A DNA stretch of 64,000 nt from Hyphomicrobiales bacterium (GTDB lineage: Bacteria > Pseudomonadota > Alphaproteobacteria > Rhizobiales > Rhizobiaceae), in assembly GCA_900473685.1 (NCBI GenBank), contig UCNE01000025.1:1-64000 (forward strand). Direction: 5' to 3'. Shown piece after piece: positions 46,379 through 57,350 of this stretch. Within the stretch, counting starts at the first letter, position 1. Every line of letters starts with the position of its first letter. The notes beneath the pieces were generated by a model that was not told where the DNA came from, searched no databases, and saw only the letters and a list, made by a program, of their open reading frames with translations. The translations under genes and the position numbers were made by a program.

Positions 46379-47137
46379 TTAGCGGACCAGCCAGCCACCA
46401 TCGACCGGAACGGTGATGCCGTTGACGTAGCTGGAAGCTGGCGAGGCTAGGAACAGCACCGAGGTGGCGAGATCGTCCGGCGTGCCCCAGCGGCCCATCG
46501 GAATGCGTGCAGAGATCTGGGCGTTGCGGTTTTGATCGTTGCGCAACGCCTCGGTATTGTCCGTTTCCATGTAGCCGGGGGCGATGGCATTGACGGTGAT
46601 GCCATGCGGTGCAAGCTCGTTGGCCATGGCTTTCGTCAAACCAGCAATGCCGTGTTTGGAGGCGGTATAGGCGGGCACGCGGATGCCACCCTGGTAAGAC
46701 AGCATTGAGGCGATATTAATGATGCGTCCGGGTCGCTTGGTCTCGACCATGTGCCGGGCTGCCGCCTGTGATAACAGGAAGGCGGACTTCAGGTTGACGT
46801 CGATGACGGCGTCCCAATCCTCTTCCGAATGATCGAGGAGATCGGCGCGACGGATGATACCGGCATTGTTGACGAGGATATCGATGCCACCGAGTTCAGA
46901 GACAACCGAGGCGACAATACCTTTCGCGTCGAATTTCTGTGAGAGATCGACTTCAAGCGCATGAAACCGGCGGCCGGTCTGTCGGATGGCTTCGGCCGTT
47001 TCCGGCATCGGACTGGAGCCAAGGGCTGCGATATCGGCGCCCGCACTGGCGAGCGCCACCGCCATGCCCTGGCCAAGTCCAGTTCGCGCGCCGGTGACCA
47101 CCGCTACCTTGCCGGAAAGATCAAACAGCGTGTTCAA
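46379..47137 (-). CDS. kduD: 2-dehydro-3-deoxy-D-gluconate 5-dehydrogenase
   Basis: 252 residues starting at TTG 47137 with AAGGGG upstream; no ATG fits the family's MNLFDLTGKVA-type start. SDR enzyme reducing 2,5-diketo-3-deoxygluconate to KDG in uronate catabolism. Cofactor motif [12 protein letters not shown] (15-26), NNAGIIRR (about 89-96), catalytic Ser in [12 protein letters not shown] and YTASK (YxxxK near 155-159). The N-terminal coding region overlaps the 3' end of the ABC ATPase gene by 17 bases. Last gene of the pectin operon, downstream of kduI and GH105. Confidence 0.93.
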
Positions 47138-48206
47138 GGCGCAACCCCTTCTCGTTGAACAGATGCAGCGGAGCCGACGACAGCGACAGGCGGATGTCTG
47201 CTCCGGGCGTCAAATTATGCTGTCCCTGCGCGACGACCAGGATTTTCTGGCCGGCGACATCGGTGTGGACGATGGTCTCGGAACCGAGCGCTTCGACCAG
47301 CTTGATCTTGGCCGCGATGCCTTCGCCGCCGTTGCCAATCGAAACATGTTGTGGCCGGACGCCGAGCGTAATGGCGGAGCCATTGGCAAGGCTGCTGGCG
47401 GCCACCGGCAGTTCCAGCCTGTTGCCGCCTGCAAAGGTGGCGACGGCCTTGCCGGAAGACGACGATTCCACCGAGCCTTCGAGGAAATTCATATGCGGTG
47501 AGCCGATGAAACCGGCAACGAAGCGGTTTGCCGGGGAATTGTAAAGCTCCATCGGCGTGCCGACCTGCTCGATGCGTCCGGCGCGCAGAACGACGATGCG
47601 ATCGGCAAGCGTCATCGCCTCGACCTGATCGTGGGTGACGTAGATCATCGTAGCGGATAAGCGGGCATGCAAAGCCGCCAGTTCGGCGCGGGTCGACCCA
47701 CGCAGTTCGGCGTCAAGGTTGGAGAGCGGTTCGTCAAGCAGGAAGGCGACAGGACGGCGCACGATCGCCCGGCCGATGGCGACGCGCTGGCGCTGGCCGC
47801 CGGAAAGCTGTCCGGGGCGGCGGTCGAGATAGTGCTCGATTTCCAGCATGCGGGCCGCCTCGGCAATGCGCGTGGCGATCTCGGCTTTCGGCATTTTCGT
47901 GTTTTCGAGCCCGAAGGCGAGGTTCTGGCGCACGCTCATATGCGGATAGAGCGCATAGGATTGGAAGACCATGGCAAGGCCGCGATCGGCAGCGGGGATG
48001 GCGTTGACCACCTTGCCATCGATAGCGAGTTCGCCGCCGGTTGGTTTCTCAAGGCCGGCAATCATCCGCAGCAGCGTGGACTTGCCGCAGCCGGACGGGC
48101 CAACGAAGACGACGAGTTCGCCATCAGCGATCTCCAGATTGATGCCATGGAGCACGTCGATCGCGCCGAACGACTTGGTGATATTGGTGAGTTTGATGTG
48201 TCCCAT
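47121..48206 (-). CDS. Sugar ABC transporter ATPase (UgpC/MsmK type)
   Basis: 361 residues, ATG after AAGGGT. ATPase domain: Walker [20 protein letters not shown] (36-54), signature [19 protein letters not shown] (135-153), Walker [17 protein letters not shown], switch His in [14 protein letters not shown]. The C-terminal regulatory OB/TOBE domain (about 240-361) contains [10 protein letters not shown], as in MalK-like importers that energise carbohydrate transporters. Encoded after the two permeases, it completes a sugar importer for the pectin-derived oligosaccharide. Confidence 0.93.
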
Positions 48207-48215
48207 GATGCACCC

Positions 48216-49268
48216 TTATTTCAGGCCGGTTCCGGCGATGCCGGTGGTGATGAAGCGCTGCAGGAAGAGGAAGACCAAAACCACGGGGATCATGGTCACG
48301 ACGGTCATCGCCAGGATGAAGTGCCACTGCACGTTGAGTTCGCCGGAATAGATGCTCAGCCCCACTTGCAGCGTATAGAGTTCCTTGCGCGACAGCACGA
48401 TCAGCGGCCAGAGGAAGTCGTTCCAGCGCCAGACAACGGAAAAGATGGCCAGCACGGCGAGCGCCGGTGCCGTTAACGGCAGGATGATCCGCCAATAGAT
48501 CTGCCATTCCGACGCCTTGTCCATGCGGGCGGCGTCGAGCAGCTCGTCAGGAATGGTCAGCATGTATTGGCGCAGGATGAAGACGCCGGTCGGCGTCGCC
48601 ACCGTCGGCAGGATCACGCCCCAGAGATTGTTGAAGAGGCCGAGCGCCGAGACGATCGAATAGAGCGGAACCATGATGACCGACAGCGGCACCATCAGTG
48701 TCGCGAGGATCAGAAGCATCGCGAAGGTGCGGCCGCGGAACTCGTATTTGCTCAGCGCGAACGCGGCCATGGAGTTGACCACCAGGGTAATCAGCGTTGC
48801 CGTCACCGTGACAAAGACGGAGTTCCAGAGATAGCGAACGAAATCGAAATGGGTGAAGGGCTCGGTGTAGTTTTCCGTCGCGAACGACATCTGCCGGACG
48901 GGCATGCGCTTGGCGATATTGACCTTGACGATCTCCGCCGGCTTCTTGGGATCGACCATCTGGCTGACGGTGCCGATGCGGCGCACTTCAGCGAGTGTCG
49001 CGGTGCTGCCGTCTTCCAACGTCGCTGTGTAGAGATCGAGCGGTTTGTCATAGCCTTCGACCGTCACTTTCTGGGTGACATAAGGCAGGATTGTCGGCGG
49101 GAATTCTGCAAGGGCCGCCGGTGACTTGAAGGATGATGCGGTCAGCCACACGGCCGGGCCGAACATCACGAACAGACCCACGACCAGCCAGACCCAAGTG
49201 ACGATATCCGTCCAGTGCCAGCCTTTGCCGCCTTTGCGGCGAAACAGGAATTCGGTAACGCGGCTCAT
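48216..49268 (-). CDS. Sugar ABC transporter permease (MalG-like) with large periplasmic insertion
   Basis: 350 residues, overlapping the other permease by ATGA. Six helices with the MalG-type EAA motif (EELLDAARMDKASEWQIYW region; IPDELLDAARMD) near 225-250 and final LQRFITTGIAGTGLK. Between helix 1 (VWLVVGLFVMFGPAVWLTAS) and helix 2 there are about 95 residues, with charged repeats such as LEDGSTATLAEVRRIG, where most MalG proteins have about 30. The extra loop faces the periplasm and may contact the binding protein or the oligosaccharide. Confidence 0.9.
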   Translation of the reverse strand: MSRVTEFLFRRKGGKGWHWTDIVTWVWLVVGLFVMFGPAVWLTASSFKSPAALAEFPPTILPYVTQKVTVEGYDKPLDLYTATLEDGSTATLAEVRRIGTVSQMVDPKKPAEIVKVNIAKRMPVRQMSFATENYTEPFTHFDFVRYLWNSVFVTVTATLITLVVNSMAAFALSKYEFRGRTFAMLLILATLMVPLSVIMVPLYSIVSALGLFNNLWGVILPTVATPTGVFILRQYMLTIPDELLDAARMDKASEWQIYWRIILPLTAPALAVLAIFSVVWRWNDFLWPLIVLSRKELYTLQVGLSIYSGELNVQWHFILAMTVVTMIPVVLVFLFLQRFITTGIAGTGLK

Positions 49269-50299
49269 TTGCGGGCTCCCTTCTTGTCGCGGGATCGGCT
49301 GAGGCCGAGCTGCATAAGTGTGAGGACAACGAGCACCAGACCCATCAGGATCGAGGCGGCGGCGGCCAGACCTGGATTGCGCAATTGTGCGGCAAAGCCA
49401 GTCTCGTAGATGTACTGCGTGACAAACAGCGTGCTGGTGCCAGGCCCACCGCCGGTCAGCACATAGACTTCATCGAAGATCTGCACGGCGCGGATCAGCA
49501 CCAGCACGATGACGACGAGCAGGTTCGGCATCAAAAGCGGCAGGGTGATGCGGGTAAAGACGCGCATGGCCCGTGTGCCGTCCATTTCGGCGGCCTCGTA
49601 CAGATCCTTCGGGATGGCCTGCAGGCCCGCGAGAATGATTAGCGTGTAGAAGCCCATATGCGCCCAGATCGAAACGCCGACGGTGGCGGCGAAGGCCCAA
49701 TTGCGGTCGTTCAGCCAGACATGCGGGTCGAAACCGAAACCATAGAGACCGAAATTCAAAAGACCTTGCCGTTGCAAAATCCATTTCCAGATCAGGCCGA
49801 CGACGACGGGCGATAACAGCACAGGAAAGAAAAACACGGCGCGCCAAAAACTGCGGGCCATCAGGTTGCGGTTGAGGATCAGGGCGGTGATCAGCGACAC
49901 GGCGATCATCAGCGTGACCTGCAGGACGACGAACCATCCGGTATTGCCGACGGCTGTCCAGAACGTATCCTCGGCGCAGGTGTTCGGGTTCAGATAGTTC
50001 GAGCAGTCGAACAGCCTTGCATACTGATCGGCACCGACAAAAGTGCGATCCGACAAGAACAGCGCGGTGCCGCCTGTCATCGAATAGGCGAAATTGATGA
50101 AGAACGGCAGAAGCACGAAGATGCCGAAGATCAGCATGTTGGGCAGCAGAAAGAATGCCGCCATGCCGCCAAGGCCAAACTTCTTTTGGACCCAGCGCAG
50201 AGGGGCATCGATGACGCCCATGGCAAGGCGCACCGGCACCATGGCGGTCTCGCCAAGGCTCTGGCCCGTCTGGCTGGTCTGGCGGGATATCTCTGCCAT
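49265..50299 (-). CDS. Sugar ABC transporter permease (MalF-like)
   Basis: 344 residues from ATG 50299 (AGGAAAGAG upstream); the frame extends to 50359 without a site. Seven-helix pattern typical of MalF homologues, with first helix AAFFLLPNMLIFGIFVLLPF, a periplasmic loop of about 70 residues carrying two Cys (LFDCSNYLNPNTCAED) and the EAA loop DLYEAAEMDGTRAMRVFTRI near 225-244. Works with the MalG-like partner to form the channel. Confidence 0.92.
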   Translation of the reverse strand: MAEISRQTSQTGQSLGETAMVPVRLAMGVIDAPLRWVQKKFGLGGMAAFFLLPNMLIFGIFVLLPFFINFAYSMTGGTALFLSDRTFVGADQYARLFDCSNYLNPNTCAEDTFWTAVGNTGWFVVLQVTLMIAVSLITALILNRNLMARSFWRAVFFFPVLLSPVVVGLIWKWILQRQGLLNFGLYGFGFDPHVWLNDRNWAFAATVGVSIWAHMGFYTLIILAGLQAIPKDLYEAAEMDGTRAMRVFTRITLPLLMPNLLVVIVLVLIRAVQIFDEVYVLTGGGPGTSTLFVTQYIYETGFAAQLRNPGLAAAASILMGLVLVVLTLMQLGLSRSRDKKGARK

Positions 50300-50362
50300 T
50301 ATTGATCTCTTTCCTGATGCGCAGCGGATGGCGCTACGGCTATCTTCCGTTGAGGCCATGAA

Positions 50363-50409: not shown

Positions 50410-51684
50410 TTAGAGAGCCGAATCCTTGACCTTGGCGGCAATATCCGCGTCGATGCGGGTGTAAGCCTCATCAAGCGTCATTTCACCGGCAGCCGCTTGG
50501 CTGACGCGGGTCACGAGGGCACCGTAGATCGTATCGGACCAGGCCCAACCCGGCAGTTTGCGTGCGAGTTCTGCCAGCGACGTTGACGCAGTGACGAAGA
50601 TGCCAAGCGCCGTCTTTGCCTGCGCATCATCGGTGTTGAAGTCCAGTCCCTTTTCGATCACGCCCTTGTGGGCCGGCAGGAACAGGGTACGCTCGGAAAA
50701 TTCCTTCACGACCGGCTCGCTTGCCAGATAGTCCATGACCTTGGCAACGTCCTTCGGGTTCTTGGTATACTTGATCGCCACCAGACCGGCGCCGCCCGGC
50801 ATGCCGGTGCAGTTTGCCGGGCCGCACGGGCTACCGGTCGCAACCCAATCGAAGTTCGAGCCGATCTTGGTCGAGAAGTTCGGCACCTGCCAGGAGCCGG
50901 AATAGTAGAAGGCGACCTGGCCGTTGATAAAATCGTCGGCGCCGGCGCGATATGTCGAGCCCGCAGCCGAAACCCAGACGTCCTTGCTCATCGTGCCGTC
51001 TTCGATCCAGCCGATGAATTTGGAGATGAAGGCCTTCGCGCCGTCATCGATCGGTGCTGGCTTGCCGTCCGCGCCGATATAATTGGCACCGAAAGCGAGC
51101 TCAGGCGCGGTCAAGCGATGCCCGGAGCGGTCGAGCGCCATCGGGAAGGGTATCTGCTGACTTTCGGCGACCTGCTTGGAGGCTTTTGCCCAGTCATCCC
51201 ATGTGGCATCCTTGCCGGGAAGGGCAACGCCGGCCTGTTCGAACAGCGTCTTGTTGGCAAAGCCGCCGGTCAGCGTGATCTGCGTCATGAAGCCGGAAAT
51301 CTGATCAGTGCCGTCGGGACGCATCCAGTCGGCCTGATCGCCAAAATTCGTATCCCAATAGGCGGCATCGGCAACCAGTGGCCGCAGATCCAGCCAGTGT
51401 TTGCTGAGCGCCTTCAGAGCGGTAACGCGGGCAATATCCGGGCCGTCGCCAGCCTCGAGCTGCACCGGCAGTTGTTCGCGTACAACGCTGTAGGACACGT
51501 TGTCGATGATGACCTTGATATCCGGATTGTCCTTCATGAAGCGGCCGATGAGGTCTTTCAGGACCTCGCCCTCGACGCCGTCGGAATACCACATGATGCG
51601 CACATCCCCGGCCAGTGCTGCCGTGGAGGTCAAAAGCCCGACGGCGAATGCCGCGAGCATCGGTTTTGTCCTTGTCCTTGTCAT
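50410..51684 (-). CDS. Sugar ABC transporter substrate-binding protein, family 1
   Basis: 424 residues, ATG after a purine-rich GAGGAGGAGGAGGAAG leader. The signal peptide is cleaved near residue 25 (TSTAALA-GD). The mature protein has the family 1 fold: VRIMWYSDGVEGEVLKDLI at the N-terminus, DGPDIARVTALKALSKHWLD near 80-99 and a helical C-terminus. Two Cys in GSPCGPANCTGMPGGAG may form a disulfide in the periplasm. It captures the pectin or rhamnogalacturonan oligosaccharide for the adjacent permeases; ligand inferred from GH105 and Kdu neighbours. Confidence 0.93.
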   Translation of the reverse strand: MTRTRTKPMLAAFAVGLLTSTAALAGDVRIMWYSDGVEGEVLKDLIGRFMKDNPDIKVIIDNVSYSVVREQLPVQLEAGDGPDIARVTALKALSKHWLDLRPLVADAAYWDTNFGDQADWMRPDGTDQISGFMTQITLTGGFANKTLFEQAGVALPGKDATWDDWAKASKQVAESQQIPFPMALDRSGHRLTAPELAFGANYIGADGKPAPIDDGAKAFISKFIGWIEDGTMSKDVWVSAAGSTYRAGADDFINGQVAFYYSGSWQVPNFSTKIGSNFDWVATGSPCGPANCTGMPGGAGLVAIKYTKNPKDVAKVMDYLASEPVVKEFSERTLFLPAHKGVIEKGLDFNTDDAQAKTALGIFVTASTSLAELARKLPGWAWSDTIYGALVTRVSQAAAGEMTLDEAYTRIDADIAAKVKDSAL

Positions 51685-51768: not shown

Positions 51769-54252
51769 TTAGTGTGCGGCCAACATGGCAACCTCGCCTG
51801 CGACCGTGAAATCCTTCGGAACGATCGTCCGGCCTTCAGCCTCGACCGATCCGTCCTTGCGGAAGGTGACCGTGCCGTATTCGGGGTCCACCACCACCAG
51901 CGAACCATCTTGTGTTTCTGCCACGGACAGCAAGGCGAACCGGCTTTCGACACCAGCAAGATCCGAGGCTTCGCAGACGCGGACGATCCAGCGGGTGTTC
52001 TGTCCGTATTGGCGCAGTTCCGCATTGGCTGAAGGGCCTGTCGCCACCGGTTGTAAATCCGTGCTGCCAAGCAGGATGACCGCGCCGCCGCCGCTGCGGG
52101 CCAAAGCCACTCGGCCCTTCACCGTGCTTTCGTCGAACTCGGCGACCGGGAACCACGCATGGGTGAAATCCGGCTGTTCCTCGAAGGTCAAAAAGTCGAG
52201 TACGGCCAGCCCCCGGTACTGGTGGGCGCGAGGGAGGGTACCGCACCCGCCCCAGAAGGACGGCCGGCCGTACCCGAACTGGATGGTTTCGCCGGGATGG
52301 TTGATCCAGATGGCGGCTTCGGGCCGCTTGCCGAGGCGCAGATGCAGGACGGTTTCCTGATAACCCCATTCGTTCCACCGGTAATGGGCAGCAGAGCCCA
52401 TAGCGAAATCACGTCCCTTGTAATGATAGAGCGCGGCAAACCGGTCCTGCCCCTGGGCGAACCGCCATTCCTGGTGCTCGTCGGCCTGATGACTGGCAAC
52501 GGCGGCGAGTGTTTCGGGAATGATCAAACCGTGATCGCGCAGGCAGACCGCAAGCTGCGGCAGAGCATGAACGCGGCGGCCGTACCAGCCAGAACCCCAG
52601 AGCAGGCGTGCAACACCCGAAAGCTCCAGCGATCGCCCGGCGCAGAGCGTGTGTTCGTAGGAGCGCCCCTGCGCTGCAGTCACCATGCCGTGGTGCGCGG
52701 AGCGGGCGATGACTTCGCACAGACGGATGATCCCTTTCTTGGCGCGCTCGGCGATATCCGCATCCGGCGACAGCGCAGCGAGCGCCGTCAGGCCCTTGAG
52801 GTCAATCGGGAAATAGGGTGCTGAGTTGAACTCGGCCATTTCCCAGGCTTCGAAATGATCGAGCCAGGCGCGAACCCGGGCGGCGCCAACGGCGCTTTGC
52901 TCGGCCCCCGTGCGGCCCGAGCGGGTGAAGGTTTCACCGGAAAGCAGACGCCCGGCGAGATAGGCGGAGGTGTGGAAGAGCAAGGCGTGGTTTTCGGAGA
53001 AATACCACTGCACGTCGTTGCCGGGCTCATCCATCCAGTAGCGGAAATCAAGGATGGCGCGATCGATGCGAGCGCGGGTCTTGTCGCCGATGTCCTTGCC
53101 CCAGACGGTGCGCGACCAGAGGAGAGGCACGAGCGAAAAGTCGGCGCAGTCGTGGCAATCCTCGATCGACGGCAGGATTTCCTCGATCATCGCGTCGGTA
53201 TCTGCGCCCCCGCGGCCGCTGGCCAGCCGTGCGAAAGCGCGGACAGTATCTCGTTCGGAGAATTCCGAGACTTCGGTGAGCGTCTCAGTGATGCGCTCAG
53301 CAAGCATCGCCGGTGCGGTGCCTTGCCGGGCCGTGTGGCAGATCTCGATGCCGAGTGAGCGTGATGCGACGAAGCCACCGGCTTTCAGCGTGATACGGAA
53401 GTGGCGGAAATCGGCGGGTGCAGCTTCTGAAGGACCGATCACCAGACGCGCTTCGCCAGCCTTGAGGATGAAGTCATAGTCGAAATGTTCGGTCGACATG
53501 AAGTCGCCCTCAACCGTGACATTGACAGCGACATCCACCGGCAGGGGCTCGGCAAGCCGCAGCGTGATATCGCCCTCGAAATAGGCGGTGCGCTCGAAAT
53601 GCATGCTGTCGAGGGCGGCCTCGATCGTCTCTGCTACCTTGCCCTCGATCGGCACGGGAACGGCGACACTCGCCGCCGGGCCAACGAGATAATCAAGCTG
53701 GAAGAAGTAGCGGGCGTCGCGTTCAGCGAGATCATCGAAGAAGATCGTGACCTCGTTCAGGCCTTCCTGCAGCAGCAATTCGAACTCGGCCTTTGCCTCG
53801 AGATTGCGGCTATAGGGCGCCATCCAACCGGCTTCCTTGCTGTTCAGCCAAAGGACCGCGCCGCCGCAGGTGCCGAGCCGGAGCTTGGCGGTCCCGGCTT
53901 TTTCCGCCGCAATGAATGTGCGGGCAAAGGTGGCAAGCCGGGTCGGGCGGAACCAGAAGCCGGAAAGATCGAGCCGCGGCGAGCCGAATGGCAGCCACCA
54001 GCGGGCGGCCTCGAACGCACCACGCACATCCGGGCGTTTGCCGCGATAGGTTTCGGCAAAGATCGTGCGGCAAGGATATTCATGCGGAATGAAGTTCTTA
54101 TGCTTGGTGAGAAAGAAGAACGGGTCCATCTCGCCCTTCATCGGCGCATCCGGCACGTCGAAACGCTCTTCGGCAATCGTTCCGAGCTGCCAGTAGCGGA
54201 TGGCATCGCCAGCGTTCAGTTTGCGGTTCATCAGGGATCTCATCGGGGTCAT
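51769..54252 (-). CDS. Unrecognised 827-residue protein in pectin operon, putative glycan-active enzyme
   Basis: 827 residues, no signal peptide, hence cytoplasmic. ATG 54252 shares ATGA with the kduI stop; ATG 54231 is an alternative. The N-terminal half looks beta-rich. One segment near 110-145 (TFARTFIAAEKAGTAKLRLG then VLWLNSKEAGW) recalls the sugar-binding beta-sandwich found before alpha-L-rhamnosidase catalytic domains. From about 330 to 640 helices dominate, with conserved-looking WYFSENHALLFHT and GRSYEHTLCAGRS, as in (alpha/alpha)6 toroid glycosidases and lyases. A beta-rich C-terminal third follows (GRPSFWGGCGTLPRAHQY). I infer an enzyme removing rhamnose or another decoration before Kdu processing, but cannot name a family. 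Confidence 0.75.
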   Translation of the reverse strand: MTPMRSLMNRKLNAGDAIRYWQLGTIAEERFDVPDAPMKGEMDPFFFLTKHKNFIPHEYPCRTIFAETYRGKRPDVRGAFEAARWWLPFGSPRLDLSGFWFRPTRLATFARTFIAAEKAGTAKLRLGTCGGAVLWLNSKEAGWMAPYSRNLEAKAEFELLLQEGLNEVTIFFDDLAERDARYFFQLDYLVGPAASVAVPVPIEGKVAETIEAALDSMHFERTAYFEGDITLRLAEPLPVDVAVNVTVEGDFMSTEHFDYDFILKAGEARLVIGPSEAAPADFRHFRITLKAGGFVASRSLGIEICHTARQGTAPAMLAERITETLTEVSEFSERDTVRAFARLASGRGGADTDAMIEEILPSIEDCHDCADFSLVPLLWSRTVWGKDIGDKTRARIDRAILDFRYWMDEPGNDVQWYFSENHALLFHTSAYLAGRLLSGETFTRSGRTGAEQSAVGAARVRAWLDHFEAWEMAEFNSAPYFPIDLKGLTALAALSPDADIAERAKKGIIRLCEVIARSAHHGMVTAAQGRSYEHTLCAGRSLELSGVARLLWGSGWYGRRVHALPQLAVCLRDHGLIIPETLAAVASHQADEHQEWRFAQGQDRFAALYHYKGRDFAMGSAAHYRWNEWGYQETVLHLRLGKRPEAAIWINHPGETIQFGYGRPSFWGGCGTLPRAHQYRGLAVLDFLTFEEQPDFTHAWFPVAEFDESTVKGRVALARSGGGAVILLGSTDLQPVATGPSANAELRQYGQNTRWIVRVCEASDLAGVESRFALLSVAETQDGSLVVVDPEYGTVTFRKDGSVEAEGRTIVPKDFTVAGEVAMLAAH

Positions 54253-55085
54253 TTCAGCTCTGCCAAGGCCACCGGGGCCACGTCGTTATACTCCTGGTTT
54301 TCTCCGGTCATGCCCCAGACGAAGGCATAGGGGCCAGTGCCCGCGCCCATATGGATAGACCAGGCGGGTGACAAGACGGCGTCGCCATTGGCAACGATCA
54401 GGTGGCGGGTTTCTTCCGGGCGGCCCATCAGATGGATGATGCGATCTTCCGCCGCCATGTCGAAATAGCAGTAGGCTTCCATGCGGCGTTCATGCAGATG
54501 CGGCGGCATGGTGTTCCAGACGCTGCCTTCGGCCAGATCGGTGATACCCATCAGAAGAAGGCAGGAAGGCGTCACTTCCGGATGAATATACATCGCAAGC
54601 CGCCGCTTGTTCGACCGGCGGCCGTCGCCCAGATCGACGGCCTTTGATTCCGATTTCCTGATCAGCTTATGTGGAATGTCGGCGCCGGCCGGAACGGAGT
54701 TCATATAGAAGCGGGCAGGGGTTTTTCCCGAAGCGCTCGCCATCGTGATTTCGCGGGCACCGCGGCCGAGATAAAGCACGTCGCGGTTTTCCAGCGTGAA
54801 GGATTGACCATCGACAGTGATGGTGCCGGTGCCGCCGAGATTGGCGATGCCCATTTCACGCGCCGACAGGAGATAAGGTGTACCAATCTCGTCTCCGGAG
54901 CCGAACGTCACGCTTTTGGAAACCGGCATCGCGCCACCGAGAAGCAGGCGGTCGACGTGCGTATAGGTGAAACTTGCGGCATCCGGCACGAACAGGTCGG
55001 TCATCAGGAAGGCGCTGCGGAGCTTTTCCGTGTCATAGCCTTTGACGTCTTCAGGGGCCGCGCCATACAAAATCTTCATCGTCAT
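54249..55085 (-). CDS. kduI: 5-dehydro-4-deoxy-D-glucuronate isomerase
   Basis: 278 residues from ATG 55085 (AAGGAC upstream; ATG 55079 also possible), sharing ATGA with the GH105 gene. Zinc cupin-type isomerase converting 5-keto-4-deoxyuronate to 2,5-diketo-3-deoxygluconate. The metal motif HLHERRMEAYCYF (HxHxxxxE, near 190-202) and a later His in WSIHMGAGTG (near 240) are visible, with SCLLLMGITDLAEGSVWNT just before. Length equals the family norm. Upstream GH105 supplies the unsaturated uronate and kduD takes the product. Confidence 0.95.
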   Translation of the reverse strand: MTMKILYGAAPEDVKGYDTEKLRSAFLMTDLFVPDAASFTYTHVDRLLLGGAMPVSKSVTFGSGDEIGTPYLLSAREMGIANLGGTGTITVDGQSFTLENRDVLYLGRGAREITMASASGKTPARFYMNSVPAGADIPHKLIRKSESKAVDLGDGRRSNKRRLAMYIHPEVTPSCLLLMGITDLAEGSVWNTMPPHLHERRMEAYCYFDMAAEDRIIHLMGRPEETRHLIVANGDAVLSPAWSIHMGAGTGPYAFVWGMTGENQEYNDVAPVALAELK

Positions 55086-56182
55086 GCTGCTTGTCCTTCT
55101 TGGCCGACGTGCTGCAAGCCTTCGGAAAGGCACAGGATAGCCAGTGCCTGGCCGTAGCCGGTCGGTTGAATGGGGATATCCTTGTAGAACTGGAGATCAT
55201 GGCCCATGCGGGTGCCATAGGAGACGTTTCCGACAGTGCCGGTCTCGTCGATGTTATCCATGACCACCTGTAAGGCCTTGAGGCCAGCTTCACGCCAAGC
55301 GGGGGGGCCGAGGCCGAGACGGTAGCCCTTCAACAGGCCGTAGCCGATCCCGGCGGTGGCGGAAATTTCTTCATAGGACGTGGCATCGTCGAGCAGGGTC
55401 CGCCATGCGCCTGATGGAGCCTGCAGCGACAAGAGCGCATCGACCTGCGCCACCAGCACACCTTGCAGGAAATCCTTCACAGGCTTGGCAAGCTCGGCGA
55501 GATCAAAGAGATCGAGCAGGCCTGCCGTGATCCAGGCATTGCCGCGTGCCCAACGCGCTTCGGCGAAGTTGTGGCGGCCATCGAAGGTCCAGCCATGGAA
55601 CCAGAGACCGGTGTGCGTGTCGGCGAGATAGCGGGTGTGAACGAGGAACTGGCGTGAGGCTTCGTCGACCAGTTCGCGGCGGCCGCTCGCCTGGCCATAG
55701 GATGCGAGGAACAGGGCGACCATATAAAGAGTGTCATCCCAGAGTTCGTCGTGGTTGACCTTGTCGGAAACGTGATGCTCGAATCCCCCCTCCGGCGTGC
55801 GGCCAAGTTCGTCCATCACCCGGTTTGCCCACGCATCGAGAACCGGCTGCCAGCGCGGATCGCGGGTCTTCGCCCAAAGTACCGATAGGCCGAGCATCGG
55901 TGCCGTGGTGTTGACGTTGAGCTGCGGGAGACCGGCATCGATACGTTGCGCATACCATTGTTCGACAAGCTGGCGCAGATCGTCGCGGCCGGTGAAAAGC
56001 CAGAGTTTGATCAGTCCATAAAGGCCGACGCCCTGCGGCCATTCCCAGCTGTCGAAGCTGATGTAATCGCCTGCGGTCCCATCGAGATTGGGCTCGTGGA
56101 AACGGCCGTCGTGCTTGAGGCCGGTCGTTCCGGCGACAAGGCGATCGAGACCGTTGCTGATATCGCGGCCAGTTGGACCCAT
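55082..56182 (-). CDS. GH105 unsaturated rhamnogalacturonyl/glucuronyl hydrolase
   Basis: 366 residues from ATG 56182 (GGAGGAG upstream); the frame reaches 56239 without a site. YteR/YesR-like (alpha/alpha)6 barrel that hydrates the double bond of the terminal unsaturated uronic acid left by a lyase, releasing it from rhamnose or another sugar. Seen here: DSWEWPQGVGLYGLIKLW (44-61), HDELWDDTLYMVALFLASYG with the catalytic Asp at 149/150, RWARGNAWITAGL and SATAGIGYGLLKGYRLG. No signal peptide, so it acts in the cytoplasm on imported oligosaccharide. First gene of the operon and divergent from the LacI regulator. Confidence 0.92.
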   Translation of the reverse strand: MGPTGRDISNGLDRLVAGTTGLKHDGRFHEPNLDGTAGDYISFDSWEWPQGVGLYGLIKLWLFTGRDDLRQLVEQWYAQRIDAGLPQLNVNTTAPMLGLSVLWAKTRDPRWQPVLDAWANRVMDELGRTPEGGFEHHVSDKVNHDELWDDTLYMVALFLASYGQASGRRELVDEASRQFLVHTRYLADTHTGLWFHGWTFDGRHNFAEARWARGNAWITAGLLDLFDLAELAKPVKDFLQGVLVAQVDALLSLQAPSGAWRTLLDDATSYEEISATAGIGYGLLKGYRLGLGPPAWREAGLKALQVVMDNIDETGTVGNVSYGTRMGHDLQFYKDIPIQPTGYGQALAILCLSEGLQHVGQEGQAA

Positions 56183-56297: not shown

Positions 56298-57350
56298 ATG
56301 ACTGTCAAACCCATCGCGGGCAAACGCGGAAAGAAGAGCAGACGGGTCCGCTTGGAGGACATTGCCGAGGCGTGCGGCGTCTCACTGAGCACAGCGTCGC
56401 GGGCGATTGCGGGCGAAAAAGGGGTACGGCCGGAAATCCGCCAGCAGGTGCTCGAAGCGGCAAAGATTGCCAATTACGTCATCCCGACAGCGGTCGCGGG
56501 CCAGAAGGTCATTCTGGCCGCGTCGAGTGCGGCGATGATCGATTACGTGCGCAACCAGTTCACGCTCTACGTGCTTGAAGGACTGAAGGAACGGGCACTG
56601 GCGCTGGGGCTCGAGATCGTCACACGGCCGATTGCCGACCGCAACGAGGAACTCGCTGTCCTCAAGGAAGCACAGGATGATCCGCAGGTTGCAGGCCTCT
56701 TGTTTCTAACGGTCGATGACGAGGGCATGCTGGCCGCGACCCGCGGCTTCGACAAGCCGGTGGTGCTGCTCAACAGCGACGATCCGTTCATGCGGCTTTC
56801 CAGCGTCACGCCCTGCAACCGCTCAAGCGCGCGGCTGGCGGCCGATCACCTGATCGGGCTTGGTCATCAACGCATCCTGTTTCTGATGCGGCCGGGACGG
56901 CGCACGATCGAGCGGCGGTACGAAGGTTGGAAAGATGCCTTGCTGCATCATGGCTTGGCCGCCGATGCGGATCTGGTCGTTCCGGTCGATGACTGGCTGC
57001 CGGAACTGGCAGCGCAGGCCATCGCGTCACGGATCGAAGCGCACGGGCTCGATTTTACAGCCGTGCTGGCCGCCGGTGACAGCCTTGCCGTCGGCGCCAT
57101 GATGGGCGTCCAGCAACGAGGCTTTTCGGTACCGGGCGATGTCTCCGTCATGGGCATGGACGACCTGCCGCAAGCGTCCTTCCTCAATCCACCCCTGACG
57201 ACGATGCATATCCCGATGCGTGAAATCGGCTCCGTTGCACTCGACCTTTTGCGCGACAGCCTCTCCGGCCTGCCGATGCCACCGCGCCGTGTCGAACTCG
57301 CCTGTCATCTGGTCGAGCGCGCATCGACGGGACAACGGCGGCCAATGTAG
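56298..57350 (+). CDS. LacI-family transcriptional regulator of pectin operon
   Basis: 350 residues, ATG after GGAGATCGAC. The HTH spans about 21-45 (VRLEDIAEACGVSLSTASRA), and the hinge helix is in VLEAAKIANYVIP. The periplasmic-binding-like core follows (about 70-350), with NRSSARLAADHLIGLGHQRI and SVMGMDDLPQASFLNPPLTT as conserved blocks. Divergent location next to GH105 implies it represses the operon until an oligosaccharide or keto-deoxy sugar binds. Its stop abuts the convergent small gene at 57351 with no spacer. Confidence 0.93.
   Translation: MTVKPIAGKRGKKSRRVRLEDIAEACGVSLSTASRAIAGEKGVRPEIRQQVLEAAKIANYVIPTAVAGQKVILAASSAAMIDYVRNQFTLYVLEGLKERALALGLEIVTRPIADRNEELAVLKEAQDDPQVAGLLFLTVDDEGMLAATRGFDKPVVLLNSDDPFMRLSSVTPCNRSSARLAADHLIGLGHQRILFLMRPGRRTIERRYEGWKDALLHHGLAADADLVVPVDDWLPELAAQAIASRIEAHGLDFTAVLAAGDSLAVGAMMGVQQRGFSVPGDVSVMGMDDLPQASFLNPPLTTMHIPMREIGSVALDLLRDSLSGLPMPPRRVELACHLVERASTGQRRPM

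Follow-up and report, generated by a model that had tools for sequence, protein, structure and literature searches.

The operon and its 827-residue protein

The window considered here (the whole stretch analysed, 64,000 nucleotides of contig UCNE01000025.1 from a Hyphomicrobiales bacterium) carries an operon whose context, the catabolism of uronides, is ordinary, and in which one gene codes for a member of an unnamed enzyme family that, in the libraries used, shows no detectable sequence similarity to any other. The genes read, in order, GH88/105, kduI, the gene in question, an ATP-binding cassette (ABC) importer and kduD, with a LacI gene running divergently (coordinates in Table 1). This gene is an open reading frame (ORF) of 827 aa on the minus strand, whose ATG (54252-54250) overlaps kduI by an ATGA (54252-54249), just as kduI overlaps the GH105 gene (ATGA, 55085-55082). 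Residues 1-60 of the product contain no hydrophobic stretch (the best mean hydropathy over 15 aa is 0.10, versus 1.91 for the neighbouring solute-binding protein), and because of this low value the protein looks leaderless; it is predicted to be cytoplasmic. An earlier note on this DNA had described the same frame, its length, its ATGA coupling to kduI, the lack of a leader and the association with GH105, KduI and KduD; all of this agrees with what we find, the strand being minus.

Sequence searches and predicted fold

No described family was found to match the protein, as the earlier note had supposed. Pfam gave a sub-threshold match to Pentapeptide_3 only (E 0.052), with PF07940 (Hepar_II_III_C) absent among the matches at E<=1, NCBIfam gave no match, and nothing significant was obtained from PDB sequences with phmmer (best E 0.79) or with two hmmsearch profile searches (best E 0.13 and 0.46). 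In these three libraries there is no significant sequence similarity to the polysaccharide lyase (PL) families PL8, PL12, PL15, PL17, PL21, PL33 and PL39.

The AlphaFold2 model (47-sequence alignment; predicted local distance difference test, pLDDT, 90.3; predicted template modelling score, pTM, 0.90) starts with beta-sandwiches at the N-terminus, continues with an alpha toroid and ends in a further beta-sandwich, a layout that had already been perceived in the earlier note. When the whole model is used in Foldseek, 241 PDB chains are retrieved at E<=1e-3, the best 50 being 49 GH2 chains and one GH78 chain (3w5n, rank 49, probability 1.00, template modelling score, TM, 0.17). This result, together with several invariant Asp and Glu residues, could speak for an inverting glycosidase (e.g. 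an alpha-L-rhamnosidase) that would remove rhamnose from rhamnogalacturonan oligosaccharides after their import and thereby let GH105 act again. However, TM to the GH2 and GH78 chains is just 0.10-0.17. Because the beta-sandwiches dominated this search, residues 312-827 were modelled separately (pLDDT 89.3), after the whole model had proved uninformative. The 14 PDB chains then retrieved (E<=1e-3) all belong to uronate lyases or to dermatan sulfate epimerase (DSE), namely DSE itself, Alg17c, GAGase II and VII, Atu3025, heparinase III, chondroitinase and Dp0100. Their TM normalised to the query (TMq) ranges from 0.34 to 0.49, which, for a predicted model, shows a common architecture and not close kinship. 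PL8 chains, including xanthan lyase, come next (E 3e-3 to 9e-3), and the best glycosidase is GH146 (E 0.008-0.044, TM 0.23-0.26; TM 0.24 at E 0.008). The model therefore supports the membership of the protein in the heparinase/alginate-lyase-like toroid lyase superfamily, which is a fold class and not one CAZy family. Neither GH78 nor GH146 gives a whole-domain match to the catalytic toroid (low TM), GH106 and GH127 are absent among the Foldseek matches listed, and a BFVD fold search gave nothing usable. Neither the listed matches nor the PDB sequence searches contain a chain described as a PL26 rhamnogalacturonan exolyase, though no direct comparison with PL26 was made.

The top match of the trimmed model, DSE 6hzn (E 1.3e-7, TMq 0.49), could also suggest a uronate C5-epimerase of the DSE kind, converting a uronosyl residue ahead of another enzyme; DSE, however, works on polymers, in the eukaryotic secretory pathway. 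Fold and catalytic positions are common to lyases and DSE, at least in the excerpts of PMC11848413. Since no other lyase was seen in the window operon (ORF list and Pfam), an epimerase would leave GH105 and KduI without a local source of substrate, unless the importer takes up oligosaccharides that are already unsaturated, as it may. We consider this hypothesis very unlikely.

Conserved residues

N421, H422 and Y480 are invariant in 120 distinct sequences of the family (120/120), and H652 is present in 118, Gln being found in L126 and L128. The same Asn-His, Tyr and His set is kept in an archaeal and a Clostridia relative, and 29 motif positions, picked on a previous alignment, are conserved in 118-120 of the 120. 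These sequences are mostly rhizobial and were obtained from 124 by dropping four identical ones; L017 (internal stop), L054 (a 728-aa piece) and L110 (the window again) are not in the count, which the near copies L001-L008, L010, L011 and L013, the broken copies L014, L015 and L018, and L029 never entered.

The spacing in the family is H422-58-Y480-172-H652, with H427-53-Y480 as an alternative. In the excerpts available for the described lyases, catalysis involves N238/Y291/H444 in PL33 (spacing 53/153), H311/Y365 with H531 in Atu3025 (54/166), and H337/Y390/H555 (53/165) or H226/Y280/H446 (54/166) in others. In Alg17c, H202 and Y258 (mutants named in the PDB entries matched) are 56 apart. By analogy, we infer an active site made of Y480, N421/H422 and H652. 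The resemblance of these residues to a lyase apparatus, like the lyase matches of the toroid and C-terminus, goes against a glycosidase, which we hold to be rather improbable. Thus, where the earlier note had hesitated between a new glycosidase and a new lyase, the second term is favoured by the trimmed model and the residues, and the first has lost ground. The comparison with GH78 that it had suggested gave TM 0.17 and no toroid match, and an alpha-rhamnosidase by analogy with GH78 was rejected, because the whole-model matches have a TM of about 0.1 and the toroid, searched separately, matched lyases.

Distribution and gene neighbourhoods

The gene or a paralog is present in 17 of 61 near genomes; with a family profile, it is detected in 19 of 297 genomes at the order level and in 9 of 398 at the phylum level, and all three counts include the own genome. 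A single-protein search of the class sample found it in the own genome alone (1/289), and the Gammaproteobacteria sample likewise gave the centre genome itself and no other (1/321). At least 544 of 595 pattern matches in genome_contigs encode relatives, the best 80 of which were kept as named loci; 200 plasmid records also match, three of them from Haladaptatus (Archaea), and 12 loci were fetched from these records (L021-L029, L191, L192 and L194). Queries with distant relatives matched one record each from Subdoligranulum, Catenovulum and Photobacterium, whereas no relative was found in viral_contigs and no match in PHROGs. We distinguish a branch A, window-like (50-100% identical), and a branch B (about 28-34% identical to the window protein). 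This recurrence in genomes, with the 29 conserved motif positions, argues against a fortuitous reading frame, and relatives are labelled "hypothetical protein" in 9/9 annotated plasmid records opened.

Copies broken over more than one frame occur in the near genomes G013 and G018 (loci L014, L015 and L018), and may reflect either sequencing error or decay. A Haladaptatus plasmid relative of 661 aa (L027:11791-13776) fills only 37 of the 305 N-terminal beta-sandwich positions, retains Asn-His, Tyr and His, and adjoins genes that match IolE- and IolG-type oxidoreductases below the cut-off.

Neighbours were counted in 80 branch A loci (tblastn, 60% coverage, flanks of 10 kb or up to the contig end). 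The solute-binding protein is near the gene in 80, LacI in 79, the permeases in 79 and 78, the ATPase in 77, GH105 in 63, KduI in 62 and KduD in 29; the loci having been retrieved via the gene itself, these counts show its companions and not the frequency of GH105 without it. The cassette is also retained in Rhodobacterales, in some cases with a tripartite ATP-independent periplasmic (TRAP) importer; in Pseudosulfitobacter, Salipiger and three further genomes TRAP replaces ABC, and GH105, KduI and KduD stay. GH105 is missing locally in 17 loci, L054 (contig end) and 16 from Rhizobium in which the family gene itself stands first, ahead of the importer. Five of these Rhizobium genomes were searched and all five have GH88/105 and KduI/IolB-family genes elsewhere (PF04962 cannot tell KduI from IolB). 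Pfam scans of the genes flanking A-type loci gave no clear sugar-specific enzyme. Many of the listed hosts are root-nodule or rhizosphere bacteria.

A putative LacI operator core, TTGCGCAA, is present in all 79 intergenic regions resolved on the LacI side, of which 63 precede GH105 and 16 the family gene; they come from related loci and are not 79 independent events. The pattern TTTCANRTTGCGCAA has one exact match in each of 8 genomes, at the cassette by contig position; as it was derived from these loci, the cassette match is there by construction and uniqueness alone is informative. Further matches with a single mismatch number 1-6 per genome, versus 0-3 for a reversed-pattern control. This genome-wide search says nothing on the substrate.

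A proposed reaction

We think it likely that the 827-aa protein works in the cytoplasm as a beta-eliminating lyase, probably in exo mode, and that it combines a heparinase/alginate-lyase fold with extra N-terminal beta-sandwiches. The enzymes next in the operon take a 4,5-unsaturated uronate, or the compound formed from it, as substrate, a pathway presented as established in the excerpts of PMC12838403. The importer would take up a small oligosaccharide that contains uronic acid; Y480, together with N421/H422 and H652, would remove the C5 proton of the uronate and expel the sugar on O4, leaving a 4,5-unsaturated uronosyl residue; GH105 would free this residue as DHU, and KduI and KduD would turn DHU into 2-keto-3-deoxygluconate, LacI presumably repressing the operon until an inducer enters. 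The operon would then be chemically complete, since a lyase would make the unsaturated uronosyl end used by GH105, KduI and KduD; a hydrolase would not create their substrate. The fold matches of the trimmed model, the lyase-like residue spacing, the GH105/KduI/KduD context and the exchange of ABC for TRAP importers while these three enzymes stay all point in the same direction.

Several observations weigh against a lyase, or at least against the details given here. No lyase is found among the best 50 of the 241 whole-model chains, and the matches of the trimmed model have moderate TM-scores, a root-mean-square deviation of 10-14 A, and an epimerase at their top. The spacings 58 and 172 are just beyond the ranges of the cited lyases (52-56 and 153-166), whereas H427-Y480 (53) is inside; H427 is equally invariant, so that the catalytic His may be either H422 or H427. 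Eight acidic toroid positions (D368, D371, D408, E409, D413, E420, E474 and D484) are kept in 119-120 of the 120 sequences and would also suit a hydrolase. In 16 of the 80 branch A loci, all from Rhizobium (R. leguminosarum, etli-like strains and kin), GH105 and KduI are both absent locally. Finally, hhalign gave a probability of 0.1% for the family versus 14 rhizobial PF07940 proteins (14 of the 20 fetched) and also 0.1% versus one archaeal heparinase-like protein; distant sequence kinship with heparinase II/III proteins was rejected on these two comparisons, which, with the empty PDB profile searches, leave no sequence-level link to lyases.

Features of the operon

The start of the GH88/105 gene is likely the ATG at 56182, behind GGAGGAGC. 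The nearest PDB match of its product is 3qwt (306 bits; from Salmonella), 3pmm and 4xuv also being close, and it is distant from YteR 1nc5 (60 bits) and 5noa (32 bits). NCBIfam names this product "beta-galactosidase BglB" (NF051900, equivalog, 542 bits for a cut-off of 420), a label at odds with its neighbours and its Pfam match, which both point to an unsaturated uronyl hydrolase. KduI is an NCBIfam equivalog (374 bits, cut-off 250).

Table 1. Coordinates of the features discussed, in the numbering of the window
Feature	Position	Strand	Remark
827-aa protein, predicted cytoplasmic uronate lyase	51769..54252	-	
Residues 1-305, N-terminal beta-sandwich region	53338..54252	-	
Residues 307-590, alpha-helical toroid	52483..53334	-	
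Residues 593-827, C-terminal beta-sandwich	51772..52476	-	
N421-H422, proposed carboxylate-stabilising residue and base	52987..52992	-	120/120; role by analogy with described lyases
Y480, proposed catalytic acid/base tyrosine	52813..52815	-	120/120
H652, C-terminal domain, proposed third catalytic position	52297..52299	-	118/120
GH88/105 unsaturated uronyl hydrolase	55082..56182	-	Open frame extends to 56239; Pfam Glyco_hydro_88
kduI, 5-dehydro-4-deoxy-D-glucuronate isomerase	54249..55085	-	Pfam KduI, NCBIfam
Sugar-binding protein of ABC importer	50410..51684	-	Pfam SBP_bac_1
ABC permease	49265..50359	-	Named from ORF translation only; conserved neighbour
ABC permease	48216..49268	-	Named from ORF translation only; conserved neighbour
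ABC ATPase, UgpC type by annotated orthologs	47121..48206	-	Pfam ABC_tran
kduD-type short-chain dehydrogenase	46379..47137	-	Pfam; orthologs annotated KduD
LacI-family regulator, divergent	56298..57350	+	Pfam LacI
Putative LacI operator TTTCAGATTGCGCAA	56251..56265	-	Core TTGCGCAA in 79/79 related intergenic regions

Candidate substrates

As 4,5-unsaturation erases the difference between glucuronate (GlcA) and galacturonate, GH105 alone cannot tell rhamnogalacturonan from glucuronate glycans. For a 4-linked galacturonate of the rhamnogalacturonan type, we would put the chance somewhat below even; a 4-linked hexosyl-glucuronate such as mannosyl-glucuronate (Man-GlcA) is a tentative candidate. 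As to the unsaturated rhamnogalacturonan fragments put forward in the earlier note, a lyase would itself make the unsaturated end, and rhamnogalacturonan is only a possible substrate.

The neighbourhoods of branch B (15 examined: L025, L026, L029 and L151-L162) bear on this choice. GH105 adjoins the gene in L154, L155, L157, L158, L160, L161 and L162, KduI and KduD are also present in L155 and L157, and GH105 and GH28 accompany the gene in R. johnstonii and Rhizobium sp. TAL182. A GH38 gene is located within 8 kb in 6 of the 15, from three genera (L151, L152, L153, L157, where it is partial at the locus end, L159 and L160; Pfam-checked in L151, L153, L159 and L160), and another is near the Subdoligranulum relative. 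Three of them have the coordinates L151:11186-14293, L159:4453-7500 and L160:3399-6452; the nearest NCBIfam model for that of L151, the only one tested, is mannosylglycerate hydrolase (131 bits of a 1138-bit cut-off). On R. johnstonii pRL12 (L025:962-6596), the region upstream of the branch B cluster codes for an alpha-L-fucosidase that has ABC importer genes of its own.

In Catenovulum adriaticum (pCadTS8_2, L191:14975-31998), the relative is found with LacI, GH88, a major facilitator superfamily transporter and an epimerase of the AGE type (closest in NCBIfam to D-mannose isomerase, with 190 bits for a cut-off of 600), followed by a second LacI, a phosphoinositide phospholipase C (PI-PLC-C1), a metallophosphatase and a TonB receptor, with a myo-inositol oxygenase 2.3 kb past the latter on the opposite strand. 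From its gene content, this is possibly a locus for the utilisation of glycosyl-inositol lipids. Clusters with GH38 or, once, with phospholipase C and inositol oxygenase are not explained by rhamnogalacturonan.

The same lyase chemistry might therefore act on a Man-GlcA-inositol head group or a similar mannosyl-glucuronate, the lyase releasing mannose and GH105 the unsaturated uronate from inositol. Besides the Catenovulum genes and the GH38 neighbours, this would agree with the relative of the phosphatase that G548 and G654 carry at 3.5 kb from the gene, and with the release of Man-GlcA-inositol phosphate, a core glycan, from plant glycosyl-inositol-phosphoceramide (GIPC) in fungal attack, as reported in the excerpts of PMC11496612. 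However, the phospholipase is present in just 1 of 20 family-carrying genomes or records (four being plasmid records only), and the phosphatase relative in 6 of the 20, near the gene in only three (Catenovulum, G548 and G654). Moreover, GH28 and not GH38 accompanies branch B in R. johnstonii and Rhizobium sp. TAL182, the two gene groups of Catenovulum have separate LacI genes, and nothing inositol- or mannose-related was seen in the window's own operon (ORF list and Pfam). We regard such a head group as an unlikely substrate, and it seems quite unlikely that the whole is a new polysaccharide-lyase-like family that takes apart the glycan head groups of GIPC from plants and algae, with mannose expelled from O4 of GlcA before GH105 and then KduI/KduD act. 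If true, bacteria would have a pathway by which they feed on a major sphingolipid head group of plants; no paper on bacterial GIPC catabolism or on this protein family was recognised in the literature searched, which is not proof of absence.

Relation to known systems

Alg17c (a PL17 oligoalginate lyase) and Atu3025 (a PL15 exolyase of Agrobacterium) resemble the 827-aa protein in the predicted toroid and beta-sandwich fold, in Tyr/His spacing, and in action at the oligosaccharide level, as proposed here; unlike them, it has no detectable sequence similarity to lyases, carries extra N-terminal beta-sandwiches and has GH105 and KduI/KduD as partners. The glycosaminoglycan lyases of PL33, PL12 and PL21 and human dermatan sulfate epimerase 1 share the fold class and, by approximate spacing, the Asn/His-Tyr-His set, whereas our protein is unrelated in sequence at the level tested, looks leaderless and belongs to an importer operon of plant-associated bacteria. 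PL27 BT0263, an L-rhamnose-alpha-1,4-D-glucuronate lyase, has an N-terminal beta-sandwich and an (alpha/alpha)6 barrel according to the excerpts of PMC8377490. The reaction that we propose is similar in that a sugar would be expelled from O4 of a uronate; the C-terminal beta-sandwich sets the 827-aa protein apart, without direct comparison, and no chain described as PL27 appears among the listed Foldseek matches, nor did the PDB sequence searches give one.

A rhamnogalacturonide cluster controlled by the LacI-type RhiR was predicted from genomes in Rhizobiales in 2013 (PMC3870299). In the excerpts of that paper, the rhi clusters (the RhiR regulon of Rhizobiales, and rhiTN and rhiABC of enterobacteria) have, like the present cassette, LacI, an ABC or TRAP-like importer and a GH105-type enzyme, and the RhiR cluster of Rhizobiales may be this cassette.

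Implications

A mechanism class can now be proposed for a widespread unnamed protein, which seemingly acts upstream in a uronide pathway that is itself conserved. The gene neighbourhoods yield a short list of candidate substrates, and the substrate would show which plant glycan feeds the root-nodule and rhizosphere bacteria that carry this gene.

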